A stretch of DNA of 64,000 nucleotides from SAR92 clade bacterium H231 (lineage in GTDB: Bacteria > Pseudomonadota > Gammaproteobacteria > Pseudomonadales > Porticoccaceae), in contig JAOALC010000004.1 of NCBI GenBank assembly GCA_025153775.1, forward strand, positions 186,001 through 250,000. Direction: 5' to 3'. Below the pieces are notes generated by a model. It was not told where the DNA came from, made no database searches, and saw nothing but the letters and a program-made list of their open reading frames with translations. Below, piece by piece: positions 6,974-20,179 of the stretch. The translations under genes and the position numbers were made by a program. The number at the start of each line of letters is the position of its first letter. The stretch's first letter is position 1.

Positions 6974-8488
6974 ATGATAGATGGGATTTTAATTGGATTA
7001 CAAACAGCCTTTACCCCCATCAATTTGTTGATGGTTCTCGCCGGTTGTTTTGCCGGAACATTTATTGGTATGTTACCTGGACTGGGCCCTGTATCTGCTA
7101 TCGCACTGATGATTCCAGTCACCTACGGCTTAGATCCGGCCTCAGGTTTAATACTGATATCTGGCGTCTACTATGGCGCCGTATTTGGCGGCTCTACCTC
7201 TGCGATTCTCATTAATGCTCCGGGTGTTTCGGGAGCCGTCGCAACGGCATTTGATGGATACCCCATGGCGCAGAGTGGTAATGCCGGCAAGGCCCTCGCC
7301 ATAGCAGCCTATAGTTCGTTTGCTGGCGGCACTATCGGCGCCATACTCTTATTGCTATGCGTTCCTTTTCTTGCCAGCGTTAGCCTCAGCTTTCAATCGT
7401 CAGAATACTTTGCTTTGATGGTCTTTGGCTGCACTGCAGTTGCAGCCTTTTCTGGAAAAGGTCAGGTATTAAAGGCCGTTTTAATGACATTGGTGGGATT
7501 AATGCTTGCAACCGTGGGAGAAGATCCGTCGGGCGCTCAACGACTCACCTTTGGTAATCCCGAGTTATCAGATGGCATCAGTTTCCTCTTGTTGTCGATG
7601 GCCACATTTGCGCTTGCCGAAGCCCTGTCTATGGTTTTAAAGGGGAGGTCTAAATCAAACGATAGTGAATCTGAGGAAATGGCTAACGTTAACTTTAAAT
7701 CGCTTAAGCTAAGTCGAGACGAGATAAAAGAAATTGCAATGCCCGTTGGACGATCGTCTGTGTTAGGTTTTTTAGTTGGGGTGTTACCGGGTGCCGGCGC
7801 GACAATTGCGTCATTTTTAGGCTACGGAATGGAGCGTAACCTCGCATCGCAAGAGCAAAAGAAACGATTTGGCAAAGGTAGCCCTATCGGATTGGCCGCA
7901 CCTGAAACCGCAAATAATGCTGCATCGACCGGCTCATTTGTACCACTTTTAACGTTAGGGATTCCTGGGTCTGCCACTACTGCAATCATGCTTGGTGCAC
8001 TATTATCTTATGGCGTCCAACCGGGACCAAGACTTTTTATTGATAATCCGGCAGTCTTTTGGTCGGTTATTGTTTCAATGTATCTTGGCAATATTGTGCT
8101 ACTGATACTCAACCTGCCTTTGATTCCCTATATAGCCAAAATATTGCAAGTACCTCGTCAGTTTTTAACACCTATTATTTTGTTCCTTTCCCTAATGGGT
8201 GTGTATTTGGTTTCATTTAACTCCGCTGAGCTATCAATCATGTTGGTGATAGGCGTCATTGCGTTGGTTTTTCGGATCTTAGACTATCCCCTTGCACCCA
8301 TGCTTCTGGGTTTTATCCTTGGGGGTATGCTTGAAGATAATTTACGCAGAGCACTACTAATATGGGACGGTAGTTACGATTTTCTTTGGCAGCGCCCGAT
8401 CACAGCCACCATAGTGATGGTGACGGTGATCGTGCTCCTAACACCTGTGTTTAGTGAAATATTCAAACGTGCATCAGGAAAGCGATAA
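6974..8488 (+). CDS. tctA: Tripartite tricarboxylate transporter large membrane subunit
   Basis: A 504-residue polytopic membrane protein of the TctA family. It carries the repeated GMLPGLGP (about residue 32) and GVLPGAGAT (about residue 270) motifs, the GGSTSAILINAPG signature, and LTLGIPGSATTA later on. It has about 12 hydrophobic segments and the normal family length. It is the last gene of the esterase-tctCBA operon and converges on uxuA. Confidence 0.94.
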   Translation: MIDGILIGLQTAFTPINLLMVLAGCFAGTFIGMLPGLGPVSAIALMIPVTYGLDPASGLILISGVYYGAVFGGSTSAILINAPGVSGAVATAFDGYPMAQSGNAGKALAIAAYSSFAGGTIGAILLLLCVPFLASVSLSFQSSEYFALMVFGCTAVAAFSGKGQVLKAVLMTLVGLMLATVGEDPSGAQRLTFGNPELSDGISFLLLSMATFALAEALSMVLKGRSKSNDSESEEMANVNFKSLKLSRDEIKEIAMPVGRSSVLGFLVGVLPGAGATIASFLGYGMERNLASQEQKKRFGKGSPIGLAAPETANNAASTGSFVPLLTLGIPGSATTAIMLGALLSYGVQPGPRLFIDNPAVFWSVIVSMYLGNIVLLILNLPLIPYIAKILQVPRQFLTPIILFLSLMGVYLVSFNSAELSIMLVIGVIALVFRILDYPLAPMLLGFILGGMLEDNLRRALLIWDGSYDFLWQRPITATIVMVTVIVLLTPVFSEIFKRASGKR

Positions 8489-8496
8489 ACTAACCC

Positions 8497-8522
8497 CAGG
8501 TATCAAGCTATCTAGCTACCTG
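8497..8522. terminator. Hairpin between convergent tctA and uxuA
   Basis: CAGGT and ACCTG arms enclose an inner AGCTA-TC-TAGCT pairing in the 23-base gap between the two convergent stops, overlapping the uxuA stop. It has no long T-run, so it is a plausible but weak bidirectional terminator. Confidence 0.4.
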
Positions 8523-9726
8523 ATTGAATATGGGTAGATAGTGCTCGGATAACACCACGCACTTCGGCAAGCCCCTTGAGTCGACCAATACCCGAATAGC
8601 CGGGATTCACAGTTTTTCCTATGTCATCCATCATCTGATGACCATGGTCAGGCCGGATAAAGATCTCGTTTCGCGCATTTTGCCCGCGCCCTTCGCGCTT
8701 ATGCTCTTCCGTTAGTAGCTCACGAATTACGCTAACCATATCAATATCGCTGTCTAAATGATTGGCTTCATAAAAAGAGCGTTGCTCATTTTTATCGCGG
8801 CTTACTCCACGTAAGTGTGCGAAATTGATTCGAGATCCAAATCGTCGCGCCATAGCAGGCAGATCATTATCTGGCCGACTTCCATAGGTACCGACGCAGA
8901 GTGTAATCCCGTTGGAGGAACTAGGTTGCTGAGCGAATAGTCTATCCAGATCATCCGCTGTACAGATAATCCTCGGCAGACCAAACATATCTCTTGGAGG
9001 ATCGTCCGGATGAATCGCGAGTTTCACACCCAGTTTCTCGGCCTTTGGTAATACATGAGTGAGAAATCTATCGAGGTTATCCCTGAGTTCTGCATGGCCA
9101 ATATGGCGATATTGCGCCAGCGCTTTTTTGAAATCGTCAAGGCTATAGCTATCAGTCATTTTTCCCGGTAGTCCTGCGATAATATTGTGCGTTAAACGCT
9201 CAGACTCCTCTGGCGACATCTGTTGATAGACCTCTCGAGCCTCGTTGATTTCGGCCTCTGTGTAGTCGGCGTCAGCGTCAGCTCTCTGCAAAATATAGAG
9301 ATCGAATGCTGCAAATTTTGTTTGATCGAAGCGCAGTGCATAGGCGCCTGTATTTAATTTATAAGCAAGGTCAGTGCGGGTCCAGTCAATGACTGGCATA
9401 AAGTTGTAACAGATAGTTTTGATTCCACATGCAGCGAGATTTTCCATCGACTTTGACCAATTATCAATGCTGGCCTGACATCCATCTCGCCCTAACTTAA
9501 TATCTTCATGTACCGGAATACTTTCAACGACAGACCAAGTTAGAGGACTTTGTTTTTTATTTCCCGATTCAATTAGATTTTGATGTTTACGTATCTCATC
9601 AATTGTCCAGATCTCCCCGATTGGCACATGGTGCAGTGCGCTAACAATATCAGTTGCGCCTGTCTGCCTTATATCAGAAATAGTAACGGGATCATTTGGG
9701 CCAAACCATCTCCATGATTCACGCAT
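8512..9726 (-). CDS. uxuA: Mannonate dehydratase
   Basis: Converts D-mannonate to 2-keto-3-deoxygluconate in the glucuronate branch of hexuronate catabolism. The start is placed at 9726 (MRESWRWFGPNDPVT), 14 codons inside the longest open frame, because this opening is conserved in UxuA and the start overlaps the uxuB stop by 8 bases (ATGCGTGA), with an AAGGA sequence upstream. That gives 404 residues, close to the E. coli enzyme. Visible family segments are ALHHVPIGEIW, CYNFMPVIDWTRT and the metal-site region LAIHPDDPP, with a late RPDHGHQM motif. It is the last gene of the dctPQM-uxuBA operon. Confidence 0.95.
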   Translation of the reverse strand: MRESWRWFGPNDPVTISDIRQTGATDIVSALHHVPIGEIWTIDEIRKHQNLIESGNKKQSPLTWSVVESIPVHEDIKLGRDGCQASIDNWSKSMENLAACGIKTICYNFMPVIDWTRTDLAYKLNTGAYALRFDQTKFAAFDLYILQRADADADYTEAEINEAREVYQQMSPEESERLTHNIIAGLPGKMTDSYSLDDFKKALAQYRHIGHAELRDNLDRFLTHVLPKAEKLGVKLAIHPDDPPRDMFGLPRIICTADDLDRLFAQQPSSSNGITLCVGTYGSRPDNDLPAMARRFGSRINFAHLRGVSRDKNEQRSFYEANHLDSDIDMVSVIRELLTEEHKREGRGQNARNEIFIRPDHGHQMMDDIGKTVNPGYSGIGRLKGLAEVRGVIRALSTHIQSGS

Positions 9727-11230
9727 AGTACAAATCCTTACTAGACTTACTAGGTAAGTCAGTTTCATTTAATACGTCAGTTATTGCGATACTAACATCG
9801 TTATCTGACAATGTTTCATAGGCTCGAGTGACAGCTGCCATAAAGCTAGAGGAGTCCATAAAACTGAATTTATCAGCGCCAATAGCCTTTAAAAATTGTT
9901 CAATATTGCTGCTTCCATTTTGGTGTATCTTGAAAAGTTCAGCGTGCAATGGATCATTAAGTGTGTAATCTTCTAACGCCTTTTCAATATAAACAATCCA
10001 AGCAGCAATCATAAAACTCATTAACGTCGTGTCATTACTCTTCATCAAAGCATCTTCAATAGTTGGAAACCAACGAAGATTGATCTTTTGGGAGCTATCG
10101 GTATTAACTTGCTGTGCAGAATAGGGCAAGGCACTATTTTGAAAACGTTGAATGATATCGATAATATATTGGCTGCCTTCAAAACCCTCAGGAACATCGG
10201 TTACCGGCAAGATAGCTTCCCTTAGCACCCTCCCTACAAATCTAAAAATTGGCGGATGCTCCAGAGCGTCATGAATATTCTTATGACCGGTTAAATGGGC
10301 TAATACAGCTATGATGGAATGTGAAGCATTAAGAAACCGTAGCTTCATTTGTTGATGCTTAATAATATCGCCGCTAAATATCACACCTACTTCATCCAAG
10401 GGAGGCCTGGGGCCGGCAAATTTGTCTTCAATTATCCACTGGCTAAAGGGTTCTGCAGACACCGGCCATGCGTCCTTTATATTGAGCGTTGAGTCAACTA
10501 AGGCCCTCAATGAGTCATCAGTAGTCGGGGCTACTTTATCCACCATTGAAGAGGCAAAGCTTATATTCTTATCAGCCCAATCCTCAAGGTGTGGAGAATG
10601 TATTTTTAACAGCGCAAATACACCAGCGCGCATCTTCTGCCCACCCGCATCGATATTGTCACAGCAAACAATACTTAAAGGCCCAGCATCGCTGACACTG
10701 CGCAGTATTATACCCGCCGCCAAATAGCCATAAATCGTCTGAGGTCTTTCCAGGCTAGCTTCGTCTGCAGACATATCAGTGTGACTATAATCGATGTTCC
10801 CTGAAGATAAGTAATATCCTTTCTCAGTGATCGTTGTGGTCACTAATTTTGTAGTTTGTTTAGCGACGAGCTTTACTACAGCATCTGGATCTTCTGGTGC
10901 TACTAGGATGTCTAAAATTGACCCTATGATTCTAAAGCTTGCTTGACCACCCAGCGTAACCTCTGTGTAAAGAAAATCCTGTGATTCAAGTACATCCCTT
11001 GTCTTGGTAGAGCGCATTGAAATACCAATGATGCCCCAGCTATCAAAACCTTGCCGGAGTAGCCTATCCATGTACACCGCCTGATGGCAGCGATGAAAAT
11101 TGCCTACGCCAAAATGGACAACACTAGGTTGAATAGCGTTTCTATCATAGGGCACGCCATCTATAGATGGGCTGCGATTTTCCGGGTCATCAAGCAGTTG
11201 TTTAAGATTTGCTGCAGTAAGTTGTTGCAT
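9719..11230 (-). CDS. uxuB: D-fructuronate reductase (mannitol dehydrogenase family)
   Basis: A 503-residue polyol/mannitol dehydrogenase-family protein. The N-terminal HFGVGNFHRCHQA motif (about residues 39-51) is the NAD-binding signature, and the C-terminal half carries the catalytic-lysine region MKLRFLNASHS. Family members include mannitol dehydrogenase, tagaturonate reductase and fructuronate reductase. The overlap with uxuA makes fructuronate-to-mannonate reduction the best reading. It follows dctM by 21 bases on the same strand. Confidence 0.9.
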   Translation of the reverse strand: MQQLTAANLKQLLDDPENRSPSIDGVPYDRNAIQPSVVHFGVGNFHRCHQAVYMDRLLRQGFDSWGIIGISMRSTKTRDVLESQDFLYTEVTLGGQASFRIIGSILDILVAPEDPDAVVKLVAKQTTKLVTTTITEKGYYLSSGNIDYSHTDMSADEASLERPQTIYGYLAAGIILRSVSDAGPLSIVCCDNIDAGGQKMRAGVFALLKIHSPHLEDWADKNISFASSMVDKVAPTTDDSLRALVDSTLNIKDAWPVSAEPFSQWIIEDKFAGPRPPLDEVGVIFSGDIIKHQQMKLRFLNASHSIIAVLAHLTGHKNIHDALEHPPIFRFVGRVLREAILPVTDVPEGFEGSQYIIDIIQRFQNSALPYSAQQVNTDSSQKINLRWFPTIEDALMKSNDTTLMSFMIAAWIVYIEKALEDYTLNDPLHAELFKIHQNGSSNIEQFLKAIGADKFSFMDSSSFMAAVTRAYETLSDNDVSIAITDVLNETDLPSKSSKDLYYA

Positions 11231-11251
11231 GAATATTTATCTCAATAGCGA

Positions 11252-12532
11252 CTAATTGAACAAACTAGGTAAAAATAATGTCGTACTTGGCAGGTAAGTT
11301 ACCAGCGCTAGAACGGCAATAAATACAAGATAGAATGGCCAGATCGAACGCAGAGTATCTTCGATACGAATGCCCCCCACCGCACAGGTTACAAAGAGGA
11401 CGGTACCCACTGGTGGAGTGACCAAGCCCAGACCCAGGTTAAGAATAAGCATAATGCCGAATTGAACGGGATCCATGCCAATCCCCACCATAACAGGAAG
11501 AAAAATAGGCGTGGTAATCACTATAAGAGGGGACATATCCATAAAGGTGCCCAACATCAGAAGTATTAAATTAACGATCAGTAAAATAATTAGTGGGTTT
11601 TCTGATATTGTCAGTAATACTGTAGATAGCTGAACCGGCACTTCCATCACAGCTAGCAACCAACCAAAAGATCCCGCCGCTCCGATAATTAAAAGTATCA
11701 TAGCCGTTGTTTTGACCGCATTAATACTTGCAGTAACGAAGCCATTCCAGTTGAGAGAGCGGTAAACAAAGACTGCCACAATTACTGTATAGATAACCGC
11801 GATAGCTGAAGATTCGGTAGCAGTGAAAACCCCGGATAAAATCCCGCCTAGAATAATAAATACCGTAAATAGCCCGGGGAAGGCGCCAATAAAATGCCGG
11901 AGTACCTGGCTCCAACCGGGGAATGCACCCCTGGGATAACCTCTTTTCACTGCAACTAGGTAAGTGACTAGCATCAGCCCTAGCCCCAAGAGGATCCCGG
12001 GTACTATACCCGCTAAAAATAGTGAACCTATTGATAGGCCACCGCCGGCTGAAATAGCATAGATAATCATATTGTGGGACGGAGGAATCAAAAGGCCCGT
12101 CGTGGCTGCTGTAGCGGTTACATTAACCGCATAATCTGCGTCATATCCCTGTTTTTTCATCATAGGTATTAATGTTGAGCCCATAGCTGAAGCGCTGGCC
12201 ACCGCAGAACCGGATATAGCGCCAAACATCATGCTAGAGCTGACATTAACTAGGCCCAACCCGCCTCTAACCCTTGCTAAAAGTGAGTGCGCAAATTTAA
12301 CCAGACGTTCAGCAATGCCGGATTGATTCATAAGCTCGCCGGCATAGATAAAAAACGGAATCGCCATTAAAGCAAATACATTCATTCCTGCGGCCATCCG
12401 TTGAAAGGCAACCACTAAGGGGATATCGAGATATGCCATAGTGGCTAAGGACGCTAAGCCAAGAGAAAAAGCAACCGGAACACCGATCACAAGAAGGATT
12501 ATTAGAGCCCCAAAGAGTATTAGTAGATCCAT
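11252..12532 (-). CDS. dctM: TRAP transporter large permease
   Basis: A 426-residue DctM-type permease with about 12 hydrophobic segments. Family motifs include GVPVAFSLG near the N-terminus, AIPFFIYAGELMNQSGI, GAISGSAVASASAMG, the LIPPSHNMI motif and LVTPPVGTVLFV near the C-terminus. Length and motif order are normal. With DctP and DctQ it imports carboxylates with a sodium gradient. Its position upstream of uxuBA points to a hexuronate or aldonate substrate. A C-terminal fragment of a second DctM lies about 1.8 kb away at 14344-14610. Confidence 0.95.
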   Translation of the reverse strand: MDLLILFGALIILLVIGVPVAFSLGLASLATMAYLDIPLVVAFQRMAAGMNVFALMAIPFFIYAGELMNQSGIAERLVKFAHSLLARVRGGLGLVNVSSSMMFGAISGSAVASASAMGSTLIPMMKKQGYDADYAVNVTATAATTGLLIPPSHNMIIYAISAGGGLSIGSLFLAGIVPGILLGLGLMLVTYLVAVKRGYPRGAFPGWSQVLRHFIGAFPGLFTVFIILGGILSGVFTATESSAIAVIYTVIVAVFVYRSLNWNGFVTASINAVKTTAMILLIIGAAGSFGWLLAVMEVPVQLSTVLLTISENPLIILLIVNLILLMLGTFMDMSPLIVITTPIFLPVMVGIGMDPVQFGIMLILNLGLGLVTPPVGTVLFVTCAVGGIRIEDTLRSIWPFYLVFIAVLALVTYLPSTTLFLPSLFN

Positions 12533-12535
12533 AGT

Positions 12536-13054
12536 TTACCTCTTATCGGCTTCAGCATTTTTCGGTGGATTAATTGAATTATCAGAAGTAATAGCAAGCA
12601 TGAGTCTTTCTAGCGCAAAAATACTGATGAATAAACCAGCGGCCGCAAAAGGCCAATAAGCAAAGGACCGAGAAATGTTCAACGCAGGCATAATATGATC
12701 GTCAGTAAATGCAGCGAGGCGACTGCCATTGACCAGCATCGCAATGCCAAAAATTATTATCAGTGAATTATTGATTACTTCTAGCAGAGTCCTAATATGA
12801 GATGGAACAGCGTCCAGAAGAAATTTTAAACCTAGATGAAAGTTTTCATAAACCCCCACCGCTGCTGCAAGCATGATGTAATACAGCATCAATAGTAGCG
12901 CCGCAGATTCTGACCAAGCAGGACTGGCATTAAGTACATAACGCGCAAATACTTGCCAGCCAATAATTAGAGTCATTAAAACCAGCCCAGCTGTTGAAAT
13001 AACAATAGCTATACGGGCAAGCTTTTGCGTGAGCCGAGCGAATATTGCCCTCAT
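12536..13054 (-). CDS. dctQ: TRAP transporter small permease
   Basis: A 172-residue membrane protein with four hydrophobic segments and the DctQ pattern (GWQVFARYVLNASPAWSES, about residues 29-47). The start overlaps the dctP stop by ATGA and the stop is 3 bases before dctM, so the three genes are translationally coupled. It forms the small membrane subunit linking DctP to DctM. Confidence 0.92.
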   Translation of the reverse strand: MRAIFARLTQKLARIAIVISTAGLVLMTLIIGWQVFARYVLNASPAWSESAALLLMLYYIMLAAAVGVYENFHLGLKFLLDAVPSHIRTLLEVINNSLIIIFGIAMLVNGSRLAAFTDDHIMPALNISRSFAYWPFAAAGLFISIFALERLMLAITSDNSINPPKNAEADKR

Positions 13055-14061
13055 AAGACCGAAGCATCCTGGGTTGCCTGAATCCGCTTTAGTAGGTCAT
13101 GCATTTTTTCCGAAGTAACAAATTTTTTGTAGACAGGTGCCATCGCATCAATAAAAAGCGATAGATCTGGATTTTCAATGACCTTTACTCCAGCGCTAAG
13201 TACTTTACCTTGTGATAAAGCAACACGCTTATCCCACTCCTTACGCATATAGGGGACTGATGCTTTTGCTGCTCGACGAATTAAATTTTTCTGCTGTAAC
13301 GATAATTTCTGCCAGCGATGCTTAGACATCACCAACACCTCAGGCATCATAGTGTGTCTTGTTAATGTGTAATGTGCGGCCGCCTCGTAATGTCCCGTAG
13401 ACTCGTAAGAGGGCCAATTATTTTCACTACCATCAATCGTGCCTAATAAAAGGGACTCATAGACCTGCCCAAATCCCATCGGTGTTGGATTTGCCCCAAG
13501 CGCTTCGACCATAGCCACGGACAGCGCAGAATTTTGAACGCGAATTTTTAATCCTTCTAAGTCTCTGGGGCTCCGAATTGCACGTTGATTATTATAAAAA
13601 CTACGTGCTCCCGAATCGTAGTAAGCTAATCCGATAAGGCCATAGGGCTCAAGGGAGGCTAAAATCTCTTCACCAATCGGTCCATCCACTACTGCACGCA
13701 TATGAGAGGTTGATCGGAATAAGAAGGGTAATCCCAGCAAGCTGGTTTCTGGGGCGACAGAATTGAGTGGTGCCATGTTGATGCGGTTTAAATCAATGCC
13801 TCCAAAGATAGTTATTTCTAGGGTGTCTTTCTCCTCTCCCAATTGACCACCCGTGTAGAGCTTAATCGCTAGATCACCGCTTGACCATTCCTCAAGCAGT
13901 GTTCCCATATACTTAAGAGCCAATGCCGTCGGGTAGTCACTAGGATGGGTCTCCGCTGCCCTGAGGACTAAATTATCGGCTCCAAGAGCAGTTTCACAGG
14001 CACCCAACATGCAAAGAAATGCAAGAAATTGTCGGACAACTATTTTGAAATACCTGATCAT
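13051..14061 (-). CDS. dctP: TRAP transporter substrate-binding protein
   Basis: A 336-residue periplasmic DctP-family protein with a signal peptide ending near CETALG. Family motifs are AETHPSDYPTA (about residue 35), the GLKIRVQNS segment with the conserved arginine that binds the substrate carboxylate, and DGSENNWPSYES. It is the first gene of the operon. The operator-like palindrome at 14120-14133 lies 59 bases upstream of its start. The TRAP/uxu context suggests glucuronate, galacturonate or a related sugar acid as ligand. Confidence 0.94.
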   Translation of the reverse strand: MIRYFKIVVRQFLAFLCMLGACETALGADNLVLRAAETHPSDYPTALALKYMGTLLEEWSSGDLAIKLYTGGQLGEEKDTLEITIFGGIDLNRINMAPLNSVAPETSLLGLPFLFRSTSHMRAVVDGPIGEEILASLEPYGLIGLAYYDSGARSFYNNQRAIRSPRDLEGLKIRVQNSALSVAMVEALGANPTPMGFGQVYESLLLGTIDGSENNWPSYESTGHYEAAAHYTLTRHTMMPEVLVMSKHRWQKLSLQQKNLIRRAAKASVPYMRKEWDKRVALSQGKVLSAGVKVIENPDLSLFIDAMAPVYKKFVTSEKMHDLLKRIQATQDASVL

Positions 14062-15762: not shown

Positions 15763-17557
15763 TTGTCATTCAAAAAAATTACTCAGGCGGTGACAGCACT
15801 GCAACAGGGGTCAGCTCGAAACGGCAGTCAGCCTATTCGACAAGTATATAAAAGAGCTCAGGCAACCACAGCATTTGCACGCCTGTGTTATTGCCTACTA
15901 CAGAGCTAATCGCTTTGCCGATGCCGAGACTGTGCTTAAAAAGCTTATAGCCCGAGTGCCAATGACACCGCAACTCGCGTCCTTATCGGCAGATATCAAA
16001 AAGGCAGCAGGAGATTTAAAAGGCGCGATAGTCTACTACCGCCGTGCCTTAGAGAAGGACGCTCAGGTACCTGAGCTGAATTATAACTTGGCTTTAGCTC
16101 TGTTTGAGCTATCTCAAGTAACAGAGGCTGCCAGTCTGCTTACCAAGGCCATTGCTGCGCGCCCAAACTATCTCAAAGCCAAAATTCTCCTGGCCCGATG
16201 TCATGCAGGTCATGAACAGTATGAGGATGCCAGGAGGGAGCTCACCCGGGTATCTGAACTAGAACCACAGAACTATGCCGCTCATTATCGAAGGGGAAGA
16301 TTGCACCTGCATCTGGGACAGAGTGCTGATGCAGCAGTCGCACTAAAGAAAGCCTTGCAGCTTAACCCCTCACTAACAGCTGCCGAGGAACTGCTGATTC
16401 TTAATAGTATTCGCGCCGGCGACCGGCCCGAGGCCAAATCTTTAATAGAAACCGCAGTTGCTCGTCTCCCCGACAATGACAACCTGATTGCCCTAGCCAC
16501 TGACTGGGGAATAGAGACCGGGGTGGACCAGCCGTTTCAACATATCCAAAGCTCTTGGGATAACCAACCCAGACCAACGATTTTTACTGTCTATATGCAA
16601 AGACTTTTATCTTTCGGCAATTTGGATGGCGCTGAAACTTTACTGAACAACTATGAACGTCAATTTGGTCTAGATTTGCGCTGGGAATCGGGAAAGCTTC
16701 AGCTAATGCTCAAGCGCGAAAACTACAGCGACATGCTAAGCTTGATTGAGAAGTCATCGGATAAAAAAGCCCATCTGGAGCTGCGATGCATGGCTCATTT
16801 CGCGCTGGGAAATTATGGCGATTGTTTTGACTGTGCAAAGCAGCTACATCTGGATCAACCCAGTGATCAGTATTATTTAGCTCTCTTAACCACTTCCCTT
16901 CGCTGTCTGGGTGATAAGCGTTACACAGAGCTGGTTGACTACAACAGCCTAGTACTGGAAGCTCAGTTACAAACACAGCAGCCCTCTACCGAGGCCAACA
17001 GGGAACTGATCGACCATTTAAGCAGCCTGCATATAACTACCACAGCACCATTGGAGCAGTCCATTAAATTGGGGACCCAAACACCGGGTAATCTTTTCAG
17101 TCAAGATCGGCACCCAAGTGTGACAGCTCTGATAGCTGAGTTGCGAGGCCTGTCTCAACCATTTTTTGACAGTTTGAAATCTGCCGGTTTGGATAAGCTA
17201 CATCCAGTGAGAGCCAATGCTCCTGGAAAACCTTTTTTCAATGCCAGCTGGTCGATCAAATCTAGGAGCGGCAGTTATCACAGCTCTCATGTTCACTCTA
17301 AAGGTTGGTATAGCAGTGCCTGCTATATTGATGTGCCTGAGGTGATTAATGACACATCTGATGCTGGTTATCTATTATTTGGAGAGCCACCATTCAAAAC
17401 CAGAGACAGATTGGAACCGGACTACAGAGTAAAACCAGCAACCGGAAAACTAGTACTTTTCCCAAGCTACTTCTGGCACTCAACCAAACCCTATACTGGT
17501 GAGGGAGATCGCTTGGTGGTGGCCTTTGATACGAGTGGTCCCAACCTTTTTGTCTAA
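15763..17557 (+). CDS. TPR protein with C-terminal 2OG-Fe(II) oxygenase domain, N-terminally frameshifted
   Basis: The N-terminal half is a run of tetratricopeptide repeats (for example ALEKDAQVPELNYNLALALF and ELEPQNYAAHYRRGRLHLHL). The last 100 residues match the putative 2OG-Fe(II) oxygenase family of the PF13759 type: SSHVHSKGW with candidate metal histidines, LVLFPSYFWHS with the distal histidine, and GDRLVVAFD with the 2-oxoglutarate arginine. The long uninterrupted frame begins at a TTG at 15875, inside a TPR. TPR-like sequence (GQLETAVSLFDKYIKE) continues upstream to about 15812. There it must shift frame to join the segment SFKKITQAVTALQQG, which starts at TTG 15763 behind GAGGG. One extra base at about 15811 explains the break. 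It could be a real mutation or a sequencing error. The gene precedes the flagellin on the same strand. Confidence 0.75.
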
Positions 17558-17704: not shown

Positions 17705-17731
17705 TAAAGAACCGATTTTCACTGTCGATCT
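17705..17731 (+). promoter_or_regulatory. Sigma-28 (FliA)-type promoter of the flagellin gene
   Basis: TAAAGAAC (17705-17712), an 11-base spacer and GTCGATCT (17724-17731) fit the flagellar sigma-28 consensus TAAAGTTT-N11-GCCGATAA at the most conserved positions and exactly in spacing. It lies about 70 bases before the flagellin start, as expected for a late flagellar gene. Confidence 0.65.
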
Positions 17732-17746
17732 CGCCTAGCGAGATCG
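17726..17746. repeat. 8-bp perfect palindrome overlapping the flagellin -10 element
   Basis: CGATCTCG (17726-17733), loop CCTAG, CGAGATCG (17739-17746). It covers the -10 box and the likely transcription start. It could be an operator or form a hairpin at the 5' end of the flagellin mRNA. Confidence 0.55.
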
Positions 17747-17800
17747 CGGAAATAAGTCCGCCTCTCTGATAACCATTTTTTTGGGATATTGGATTAAGAC

Positions 17801-20179
17801 TTGAAGATAGGCACCAACATAACGGCAAGCATTGCCGCCAACAGCCTCGCTAAGAACGAGCGAGCCATGGCGCAATCTATGCAGCGACTGTCCACAGGGC
17901 TGAGAATCAACTCAGCTGCTGATGATGCCGCTGGGCTGGCTATCGCCTCAAGAATGACAAGTCAGGCCAGAGGACTAGATCAGGCTGTCCAGAATGCCAA
18001 TGATGCGATAGGTATGATTCAGACAGCAGACGGTGCAGTTGCCAGCGTGACAGCTATGTTGCAGAGAATGCGAGAGCTGTCTGTTCAGGCTGCGAATGAC
18101 ACTAATACCAGCAAGGATAGATCATCACTGGATTTAGAGTATCAGGCACTTAAAGCAGAGATAGAAAGAGTCTTTAACAACACCCAGTGGAATGGTGAAA
18201 ATCTCCTAGACGGCTCCCATTTTGGTAGTACCACATCATTCCAAGTGGGTGCCAATGCCTCACAGACTATTGATTTAACCTTGGGCAGCGCCTCTATCAG
18301 TAGCCTGGGGGGCACCGCCAACTACGGAACTCACCCTTCTGCTGCACCAGCACTGACTCAGGTAAGTGCGCCAGTGACTGATGTCTCGCTGAATGCAACG
18401 GGAACCTGGACTCAACGCGGTACGGACTTAGACGGCGAAAGCGCCGGTGATCACCATGGATTTTCAGTTTCTCTAAGCCACGATGGCAATATTTTAGCCG
18501 TTGGTGCTCTAAACAATGACGACAATGGCACAGACTCAGGTCAAGCCAGAGTCTATTCATGGAACGGATCAGCTTGGCAGCAAATGGGTTCGGATATAGA
18601 TGGCCTGTCCAGCTATAACTACGACGGCCATTCGGTGAATCTGAGTGATGATGGCCTGACTCTGGCTGTGGGTGCGATACAACCGGGGGGTGCAGCGGGT
18701 AGCACGCGGGTGTTCACATGGGATGCATCTAACTCTCAGTGGATCGCAAAGGGCGCAACCATAAGTGGGGAAGGAATTGGGGATAGAAGTGGCAACAATG
18801 TAATCCTTAGCGCCGATGGCAATATACTTGCAATCGCAGCCAACCTTGGTGAGGGTACCGCGGGCGCAGACAGTGGCTACGTCAGAATATTTAGCTGGGA
18901 TGGTACGGCCTGGGTTCAACTAGGGCTTAATATAAATGGAGAGGCTACTAATGATCGCAGCGGGTCTAGCATTAGTCTGAGCGAGGATGGCAGCATTGTG
19001 GCCATAGGAGCTGCATATAATGATGGCAATGGCTCTGACTCTGGTCATGTCCGAGTTTATAAATGGAATGGCACCTCATGGAACAAGCTTGGCAATGATA
19101 TAGATGGCGAATCAGCTTACGATTATTCATATTTTGTTAGTCTTAGTCTCGATGGAGAAACCTTGGCTATAGGTGCACCATTAGCCAAAGATGGAAGTGG
19201 TACTGCTACTGGGCACACTAGAGTCGTTAAATGGGATGGATCGGATTGGGTGCAGCTGGGCTCTGATATCGATGGAGATGCCGCCAATGACTCCAGCGGC
19301 TGGCAGGTAAGCTTAAATGATGACGGCACCATTGTTACTGCCGTAGCTCCCTCACATGATAACAGCACCGGTCATGCCAAAGTCTATAAGTGGGACGGAA
19401 CAAATTGGGTGCAGCTGGGTAATGACATAGATGGTGAGGCTGTCGGCGATTCAACCAGATCTGTCAGCACCAATGCCTATGGCAATACCATTGCACTTGG
19501 CAGCCGCTACAATGATGGTAGCGCTGATGACGCTGGACATGTGAGGGTCTACGATTGGCCTTCTACCACTACCTATACCGCTGGAGTGAGCCAGCTAGAC
19601 TTTAATGATTTGGATCTGGTCTTAGGCGACCGGGTTATTATCAATATCACTGGTGGCTCTCAGGTAGAGGCATTTATGGAATCTAGCGGCTTGGATGGGC
19701 TGCTATCCAATATCAGCGCTCAAATTGCAGCGCAGACCAATCTGTATAGCGGAGCAAGTGCGACCGCTGGGGTGATCAGCATTACAGGGCTTGCGGATGG
19801 CAATGCTGTATCGGGCTTAAGTGTCAGCCTTGAGCGAAGTGGTTACAGCACCAGTGACGCTATAGAATCGACTGAGCTCAGTTCTGTTGCATCAGCCTCA
19901 ACTTCTCTGGCCACAATAGACCGGGCTATTACTCAGATCAGCGGGCAAAGAGCAGGCTTCGGTGCAATTATGAATCGCATTGAATATGCCATTGATAGTC
20001 TCTCGACCATGTCTACCCAATCCAAAGCATCTCTCAGTAGAATTCAAGATGCCGATTATGCAAGAGAGACCACTGAATTGGCACGCACTCAGATTATCCA
20101 GCAGGCGGCGACTGCTATGCTGGCACAGGCCAACCAGCAGTCTAAAGTTGTTATGGATATTCTTAACTGGGATAACTAA
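17801..20179 (+). CDS. fliC: Flagellin carrying a seven-bladed beta-propeller in its variable region
   Basis: A 792-residue flagellin. The N-terminal D0/D1 region is canonical (MQRLSTGLRINSAADDAAGL, residues 27-46, and MIQTADGA, 72-79), as is the C-terminal D1/D0 region (RIEYAIDSL, then IQDADYARETTELA, ending QSKVVMDILNWDN). The middle, about residues 201-588 (18401-19564), is not a normal D2/D3 insert. It is seven consecutive repeats of 53-57 residues. Each opens with W-x-x-x-G-x-x-I-x-G-E, contains SLSxDGxxLAIGA, and ends G-H-V-R-V-Y-x-W-x-G. They resemble the FG-GAP/integrin-like propeller repeats of cell-surface proteins. Residues 589-690 form a second linker domain. Start is a TTG with a weak GGA upstream, chosen because the flagellin N-terminus begins there. 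No other flagellar gene is in the window. Inferred role is filament subunit with a surface-displayed binding domain. Confidence 0.9.
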   Translation: MKIGTNITASIAANSLAKNERAMAQSMQRLSTGLRINSAADDAAGLAIASRMTSQARGLDQAVQNANDAIGMIQTADGAVASVTAMLQRMRELSVQAANDTNTSKDRSSLDLEYQALKAEIERVFNNTQWNGENLLDGSHFGSTTSFQVGANASQTIDLTLGSASISSLGGTANYGTHPSAAPALTQVSAPVTDVSLNATGTWTQRGTDLDGESAGDHHGFSVSLSHDGNILAVGALNNDDNGTDSGQARVYSWNGSAWQQMGSDIDGLSSYNYDGHSVNLSDDGLTLAVGAIQPGGAAGSTRVFTWDASNSQWIAKGATISGEGIGDRSGNNVILSADGNILAIAANLGEGTAGADSGYVRIFSWDGTAWVQLGLNINGEATNDRSGSSISLSEDGSIVAIGAAYNDGNGSDSGHVRVYKWNGTSWNKLGNDIDGESAYDYSYFVSLSLDGETLAIGAPLAKDGSGTATGHTRVVKWDGSDWVQLGSDIDGDAANDSSGWQVSLNDDGTIVTAVAPSHDNSTGHAKVYKWDGTNWVQLGNDIDGEAVGDSTRSVSTNAYGNTIALGSRYNDGSADDAGHVRVYDWPSTTTYTAGVSQLDFNDLDLVLGDRVIINITGGSQVEAFMESSGLDGLLSNISAQIAAQTNLYSGASATAGVISITGLADGNAVSGLSVSLERSGYSTSDAIESTELSSVASASTSLATIDRAITQISGQRAGFGAIMNRIEYAIDSLSTMSTQSKASLSRIQDADYARETTELARTQIIQQAATAMLAQANQQSKVVMDILNWDN

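Follow-up and report, generated by a model that had tools for sequence, protein, structure and literature searches.

The stretch of DNA analysed here, called the window below, comprises 64,000 nucleotides of SAR92 clade bacterium H231 (G000:C4:186001-250000, from an assembly of 2.93 Mb in 7 contigs, 97.8% complete). It holds a gene for a flagellin of 792 amino acids (aa), in which a predicted seven-bladed beta-propeller stands between ordinary flagellin ends. We think it somewhat probable that this filament-type flagellin displays its closed, integrin-alpha-type propeller as a multivalent binding head. The flagellin ends, the seven-blade fold, the integrin-like architecture, the gene family in the Porticoccaceae, the constraint among presumed orthologues and the shared upstream region were all computed.

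Domain layout and predicted fold

The open reading frame (ORF) lay exactly where the original prediction had placed it. Repeats were located with a one-blade hidden Markov model (HMM), and domains by Pfam and structure models.

17801..20179, + strand: propeller-bearing flagellin gene; TTG start, 792 aa, stop included
17801..18310, + strand: flagellin D0/D1 N-terminal part, residues 1-170; PF00669 at residues 3-139, predicted helices
18398..19570, + strand: predicted seven-bladed beta-propeller, residues 200-590; from fold model, integrin entries and repeat HMM
18407..18574, + strand: repeat 1, W203-258; HMM and model, first strand predicted to be the outer strand of blade 7
18575..18739, + strand: repeat 2, W259-313; blade HMM
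18740..18910, + strand: repeat 3, W314-370; blade HMM
18911..19078, + strand: repeat 4, W371-426; blade HMM
19079..19246, + strand: repeat 5, W427-482; blade HMM
19247..19405, + strand: repeat 6, W483-535; blade HMM
19406..19570, + strand: repeat 7, W536-590; HMM and model, without an own outer strand after it
19577..19870, + strand: predicted D2-like beta/alpha domain 3' of the propeller, residues 593-690; from the model, D2 likeness by reading
19871..20176, + strand: flagellin D1/D0 C-terminal helix, residues 691-792; PF00700 at 704-788, predicted helix 696-790

Both ends scored above the Pfam gathering score, which confirmed that they are ordinary flagellin ends, as first proposed. Flagellin_N reached 149.1 bits (gathering score 26.6, 1e-43) and Flagellin_C 79.8 bits (gathering score 23, 1.9e-22). 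The middle of the protein matched FG-GAP_2 (PF14312) in four stretches, with 56.9 bits against a cut-off of 23 (2.4e-15 for the whole protein). Flagellin models ranked first in NCBIfam, and none of the 25 matches listed reached the full-length cut-off. By sequence, the best 60 of 82 solved relatives were flagellins. The full-length model predicted helices at residues 4-99, 104-127 and 696-790, corresponding to a helical D0/D1 rod formed from both ends. The extreme ends were of low confidence, and residues 1-8 had a predicted local distance difference test (pLDDT) score below 50. The D2-like domain was modelled as strands 611-616 and 622-625, a helix 630-643 and strands 651-680, and similar modules recur in the giant relatives described below.

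The HMM detected exactly seven repeats, starting at W203, W259, W314, W371, W427, W483 and W536. Consecutive starts were 53-57 aa apart and tryptophan was the first residue in 7 of 7 repeats, so that the seven tandem repeats read from the sequence beforehand were recovered. The HMM was built from four family flagellins including the window protein's own repeats and is therefore no independent test of the repeat count. The two motifs named at the outset held as consensus forms, while the literal SLSxDG was present in 3 of 7 repeats and the literal GHVRVYxW in 2 of 7, the others being variants.

When modelled alone, the propeller gave seven four-stranded blades with a pLDDT of 93 and a predicted template modelling (pTM) score of 0.93. 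The model put the first strand into the last blade as its outer strand, and the full-length model reproduced the strands of the isolated one. Closure was judged from the order of the strands and from the likeness to closed propellers; it is a property of a predicted rather than a solved structure. At this level, the expectation of a closed seven-bladed propeller was upheld, since the predicted fold does close. The closest solved folds, 50 of 50 among the matches listed, were integrin entries (integrin alpha heads); Foldseek placed WD40 propellers high as well.

We counted repeats with the blade HMM in 19 family flagellins, some of them near-copies of each other. Fifteen had exactly seven repeats, two (the 1009-aa pair) had seven with an insert splitting one blade, and two degenerate copies scored five and six. 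Among 96 arrays in the ORFs of loci L052-L129, 79 had seven repeats and two had fourteen. Judged from these sequences, the repeat number of seven is not chance, and its constancy across different carriers fits a closed ring.

Paralogues, relatives and giant flagellins

Seven Flagellin_N matches were found in the own genome: three flagellins with a propeller (792, 797 and 1009 aa), three without one (412, 633 and 630 aa) and one protein that, from its position and length, looks like FlgL. The ten FG-GAP_2 matches detected in this genome all fall inside the three propeller flagellins. The genes for the 792- and 797-aa proteins have 3 differences in their first 375 bases; the first 125 residues are identical and the N-ends are 94% identical. 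Their propellers share 50% identity. Near-equal N-ends combined with such propellers suggest homogenised ends or swapped middles. The N-end of the 1009-aa gene is more distant, with 67-85% of bases identical per window over most of its length. In this paralogue (L009 6628-9657), blade 2 is split by an insert of about 210 residues (about residues 291-497), which had no Pfam match and matched the PDB only weakly (best E 0.008 over 32 residues, a designed repeat protein). The 1009-aa paralogue exceeds the giant-flagellin length of 1000 aa; the 792-aa window protein does not.

A scan of genome contigs with the propeller returned 190 relatives, and the best 80 of these 190 gave 79 loci. Propeller and flagellin ends shared one frame in 9 of the 79 (L060 is cut at its 5' end). 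Eight of the nine are titled Porticoccaceae, a family name taken here from record titles throughout, and one (L065) belongs to a metagenome-assembled genome (MAG) titled Flavobacteriaceae TMED48. The L065 flagellin is identical over 684 residues to one of genome G124, from the window's own family, and the Flavobacteriaceae title is therefore probably wrong, through a naming or binning error. In the other 70 of the 79 loci no flagellin end was seen; 59 of these 70 are Bacteroidota by title.

In the family search, 14 of 112 genomes had a propeller match, and 20 propeller flagellin genes were found in 11 of the 14 (G000 three, G013 two, G065 two, G066 two, G112 one, G113 two, G116 one, G117 two, G120 one, G122 one, G124 three). 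Contig ends cut both the 524-aa gene of G066, of which only a C-end is seen, and the 732-aa gene of G065, which shows part of an N-end. Genes of 632-637 aa in G112, G120 and G124 have weak flagellin ends (C-end 36-45 bits). By reading, much of the N-terminal D0 helix is missing from their products (L141 685-2580, - strand; L142 47-1957, + strand; L159 628-2538, - strand), and these flagellin-like propeller proteins may be exported but unable to polymerise. The remaining genomes, G064, G073 and G110, showed propellers only, without flagellin ends in the parts fetched. One contig of G064 (contig 40; L138, L147, L157) carries an open frame of 1874 aa in which, by reading, Asp-rich DxDxDG-like spacers connect several propellers; no flagellin ends occurred in its fetched parts either.

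Wider samples were assessed from the loci fetched rather than from every match. Flagellins made up 0 of 28 new propeller loci from the order sample (390 genomes), 0 of 29 propeller loci from the class sample (369 genomes) and 0 of 16 new loci outside the own genome from the phylum sample (398 genomes). Among viral contigs, at least 56 loci (L234-L289) were inspected; 53 had a propeller ORF and none of these had flagellin ends. Propeller relatives on these virus-labelled contigs had 24-63% identity in the best segment, among the matches listed. One phage record and 10 plasmid records gave propeller matches at 26-34% identity.

Four relatives (L092, L100, L102 and L108) are giant flagellins of 1600-1603 residues, with a first propeller at about residues 245-632. 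The giant genes of G113, G116, G117 and G122, whose fetched loci stop before the C-terminus, were linked to L100, L102, L108 and L092 by equal length and N-end, and both ends are visible there. At about residues 755-1143 the giants carry a second, different repeat array (EFQVNT...DGGFVVTW...), which in L092 lies at 7534-8691. A pattern count gave seven repeats in 3 of 4 giants and five in L100, which has 62 ambiguous residues. Its repeat number suggests that this array may be a propeller as well. It had no solved relative by sequence, and hhalign of the second against the first array gave no relation (probability 0.1, only 3 rows). Between L092 and L100 the second array is 98.4% identical and the remainder 82-95%, while between L100 and L108 the remainder is 95-100% and the second array 52.7% identical. 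For L102 and L108 the second array is 91.9% identical. These segment identities point to block exchange of the whole second array. L100, L102 and L108 are bins. The title of the L092 record does not contain "MAG", and an assembly chimera could therefore explain one giant pair but hardly both.

The ratio of nonsynonymous to synonymous substitution rates (dN/dS) was determined for propellers of presumed orthologues. It was 0.05 for P797-c4_732 and 0.09 for P1009-UBA_1011 (insert included). For the giants it was 0.12 (L092-L102), 0.10 (L102-L108) and, in the very close pair L100-L108 with dS 0.05, 0.24. The window propeller differs from its nearest relative by 2 synonymous and 0 other changes; between the 792- and 797-aa propellers dS was saturated. 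Propellers of presumed orthologues thus look constrained at the sequence level. A tree of D0/D1 was built from 23 rows, 15 propeller flagellins and 8 ordinary ones (held to 8 by a sequence filter), omitting G120_632, G112_637, G124_637 and c4b13_732 with cut or degenerate ends. It placed G066_671 with an ordinary flagellin at 100/100 and requires at least two changes of the propeller trait; a single origin was thus not upheld by this tree. The propeller tree (53 rows) gave little resolution, with bootstrap not settled and several long branches, and did not group the flagellin propellers.

Known systems and possible roles of the propeller

No description of a propeller flagellin was found in open-licence literature among the matches listed, judged mostly by title or start of abstract. 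The possibility raised beforehand that many described flagellins share the insert was not borne out in these listings; undescribed members occur in 11 of the 112 family genomes. The original prediction had also held that no propeller-bearing flagellin was known. This has to be qualified. Sialidases, an enzyme family, are six-bladed propellers, in contrast to the seven blades here. Eckhard 2017 (PMC5595980; this and the other articles given by PMC number are drawn on for part of their text) reports 61 domains in the variable regions of 26,587 flagellins, and Sialidase stands tenth in the domain count of its Table 1 with 10 cases. A propeller in a flagellin therefore has a listed precedent. The terms "fg-gap" and "propeller" are absent from the main text of PMC5595980, and FG-GAP may be in the supplementary list of the 61 domains. 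With the flagellinolysins of the same article the window protein shares a complete foreign domain between intact ends and a patchy distribution. There, however, the insert is a gluzincin peptidase with HExxH that was shown on filaments (PMC5595980), whereas the insert here is a predicted propeller. In the 792-aa protein HExxH is absent, and neither a peptidase family nor a Sialidase/BNR domain was matched in Pfam at E<=1.

PilY1 is not known to be a filament-forming subunit. This type IV pilus factor likewise has a seven-bladed propeller tied to a motility appendage, but carries a Dx[DN]xDG calcium site (PMC3123361). Together with the integrin-like fungal lectin PVL it gives the nearest functional hints (PMC3123361, PMC8023676). 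Integrin alpha heads and bacterial integrin-type propellers (Chouhan 2011, PMC3192720) have 14-18% identity with the present propeller, which lacks DxDxDG Ca2+ loops and is carried by a flagellin. No word beginning with "flagell" occurs in the main texts of PMC3192720, PMC8023676 and PMC3123361. The giant flagellins of Oceanospirillales (PMC6248924) share large outer parts, repeated domains and an origin in marine gammaproteobacteria. Their inserts are DE/DX regions, which the part of that article drawn on does not describe as propellers, and the window protein has 792 aa, with relatives to 1600 aa. PMC12153261 was considered as a precedent and rejected, as its five-bladed propeller belongs to another adhesin and not to a flagellin.

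If the propeller is a binding head, the chain would leave via the flagellar export gate, and its D0/D1 ends would polymerise with the three ordinary flagellins of the genome into a mixed filament. The propeller would fold as one block on the filament surface, and its two ends should meet at blade 7. Since filaments are polymers, the same head would be displayed many times even by a subunit present in minor amounts. With a protein or glycan as ligand, such heads would let the filament capture surfaces, particles or cells, and three paralogues with propellers about half identical could give mixed specificities. Export, co-assembly, display and ligand binding are what we infer from the computed features. 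Given the model, a multivalent adhesin is plausible, and flagella may double as carpets of binding heads; the algal glycans suggested beforehand as a target are a speculative detail of this reading.

Several points weigh against this. The propeller flagellin is known here from sequence and predicted structure, and of the 9 relatives with names, 8 have titles that mark them as metagenome bins. The full-length model reached a pTM of only 0.55, leaving the position of the propeller on the rod unsure. No propeller flagellin was found in 101 of the 112 family genomes, which makes it an accessory trait and speaks against any essential role; the contig scan covered the best 80 of 190 relatives and the large genome samples scored few candidates per genome, and propeller flagellins elsewhere may have been missed. 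The sigma-28-like site upstream of the gene (see below) has 6 mismatches of 16 to the full consensus, no better than shuffles. The canonical integrin Ca2+ loop DxDxDGxxD occurred 0 times in the window protein and in 0 of 42 aligned rows, and the A-B loop of blade 1 in the propeller model has 5 residues. The fold is therefore integrin-like, and we do not file it as a calcium-binding integrin head. An acidic loop of the DIDGExxxD type (1-3-5-9 spacing) occurs five times in the window protein, against a shuffled mean of 0.28. Its occurrence among relatives is uneven, with none in six, one per giant and three in the 1009-aa paralogue, and it can therefore not be a general binding site. Calcium-binding heads were rejected on these grounds, and metal binding is not claimed.

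The propeller could instead be a structural outer domain, which thickens or stiffens the filament or contacts neighbours and so tunes swimming with no external ligand. Outer-domain dimerization of flagellin modulates motility in some bacteria (PMC8931119), and giant flagellins form thick filaments (PMC6248924). The constraint on the propellers could also stem from structure alone. However, if the propellers were lattice contacts of purely structural value, one would expect neither the 792- and 797-aa propellers to be so much more diverged than their N-ends nor the giants to swap one whole array, and we consider this explanation unlikely. The same two observations would suit a variable coat, in which propellers are exchangeable antigens against flagella-binding phages or grazers and diversity itself is selected, not a ligand. 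Flagellin variable regions are classic antigens. Yet presumed orthologues keep their own propeller, with dN/dS of 0.05-0.12 in four pairs and 0.24 in the fifth and no excess of amino-acid changes, and the seven repeats are kept. A variable coat thus appears less likely still. It is quite improbable that the protein is secreted through the flagellar export gate as a flagellin-like product and stays out of the filament. Family members of 632, 637 and 637 aa may do so, and the window gene, on contig C4, lies apart from the other flagellin genes on C3. In the window protein, in contrast, both helical ends are complete and score strongly in Pfam, and the 797-aa paralogue has the same first 125 residues.

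Display as a binding head is the reading that we prefer. Beyond it, and only tentatively, some SAR92-type marine bacteria might carry on their flagella a modular, swappable and multivalent receptor for surfaces or cells, with integrin-alpha-like heads, a second array in the giants, several genes per genome in some, and whole heads exchanged between lineages through recombination on constant polymerising ends. If true, flagella would be not only motors and, in some cases, proteases, but also polymers bearing heads of the integrin type, whose fold serves adhesion in animals. Free-living marine bacteria that capture particles or algae while swimming would become a testable case. The protein would be a natural scaffold that exports propellers of 390 residues and displays them in many copies, and the giants would show how nature exchanges heads while the polymer core stays fixed.

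Upstream region and neighbouring genes

Two candidate elements were annotated upstream of the gene.

17705..17731, + strand: sigma-28-like promoter TAAAGAAC-N11-GTCGATCT, 96 nt upstream of the gene
17727..17745, + strand: inverted repeat GATCTCGC-CTA-GCGAGATC, overlapping the -10 box; both arms conserved among six aligned copies

The promoter was called with the sigma-28 consensus, and FliA is present in the own genome. The core TAAAG-N14-GTCGAT at 17705-17729 was the sole match in the window (0.12 expected). Both paralogues and the 412-aa flagellin also have a sigma-28-like core, 95-100 nt ahead of the gene; over the whole genome, the core pattern had 21 sites against 8 in a reversed control. 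Against the full consensus, the 1009-aa gene site was likewise no better than shuffles. For the 797-aa gene, UBA793, UBA1011 and c4_804 the best full-consensus match lay elsewhere (c4_804 at -138, 4 mismatches, 0 of 200 shuffles as good). The site of the 412-aa flagellin had 3 mismatches, with 0 of 200 shuffles as good. The three upstream regions are homologous as well, and the sigma-28 call therefore carries moderate weight at most. Sigma-54-like sites precede the giant genes and L065, at -76 and -88 (with 3 and 1 mismatches out of 13, equalled by 0-7% of shuffles).

The inverted repeat could be an operator for some regulator or a 5' hairpin. In the alignment of the 5' region no pair had changes on both sides, and an RNA hairpin is therefore not supported over a DNA operator. 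Rfam gave no match upstream of the window flagellin. Next to this repeat, within 17727-17761, a second short inverted repeat was present upstream of the six propeller flagellins aligned.

The gene directly 5' (15875-17557, + strand) encodes tetratricopeptide repeats (TPR) and a 2-oxoglutarate (2OG)-Fe(II) oxygenase (PF13759, 9e-20), possibly a flagellin-modifying enzyme. At L010 7125-8779, FliD is likewise followed by ORFs that, by reading only, look like TPR and oxygenase genes, and tblastn of this 5' gene's product gave no match to them at 1e-5. Run on the two locus files for L008-L050 and L051, without loci from L126 onwards, tblastn matched only copies of the product itself from the own genome. 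As an operon partner this gene was rejected, and a functional link is not claimed. Further upstream (8512-14061), ORFs that by reading resemble mannonate dehydratase and fructuronate reductase lie beside a TRAP-transporter-like set (tripartite ATP-independent periplasmic), and this uronate-gene set is consistent with a polysaccharide-eating lifestyle.
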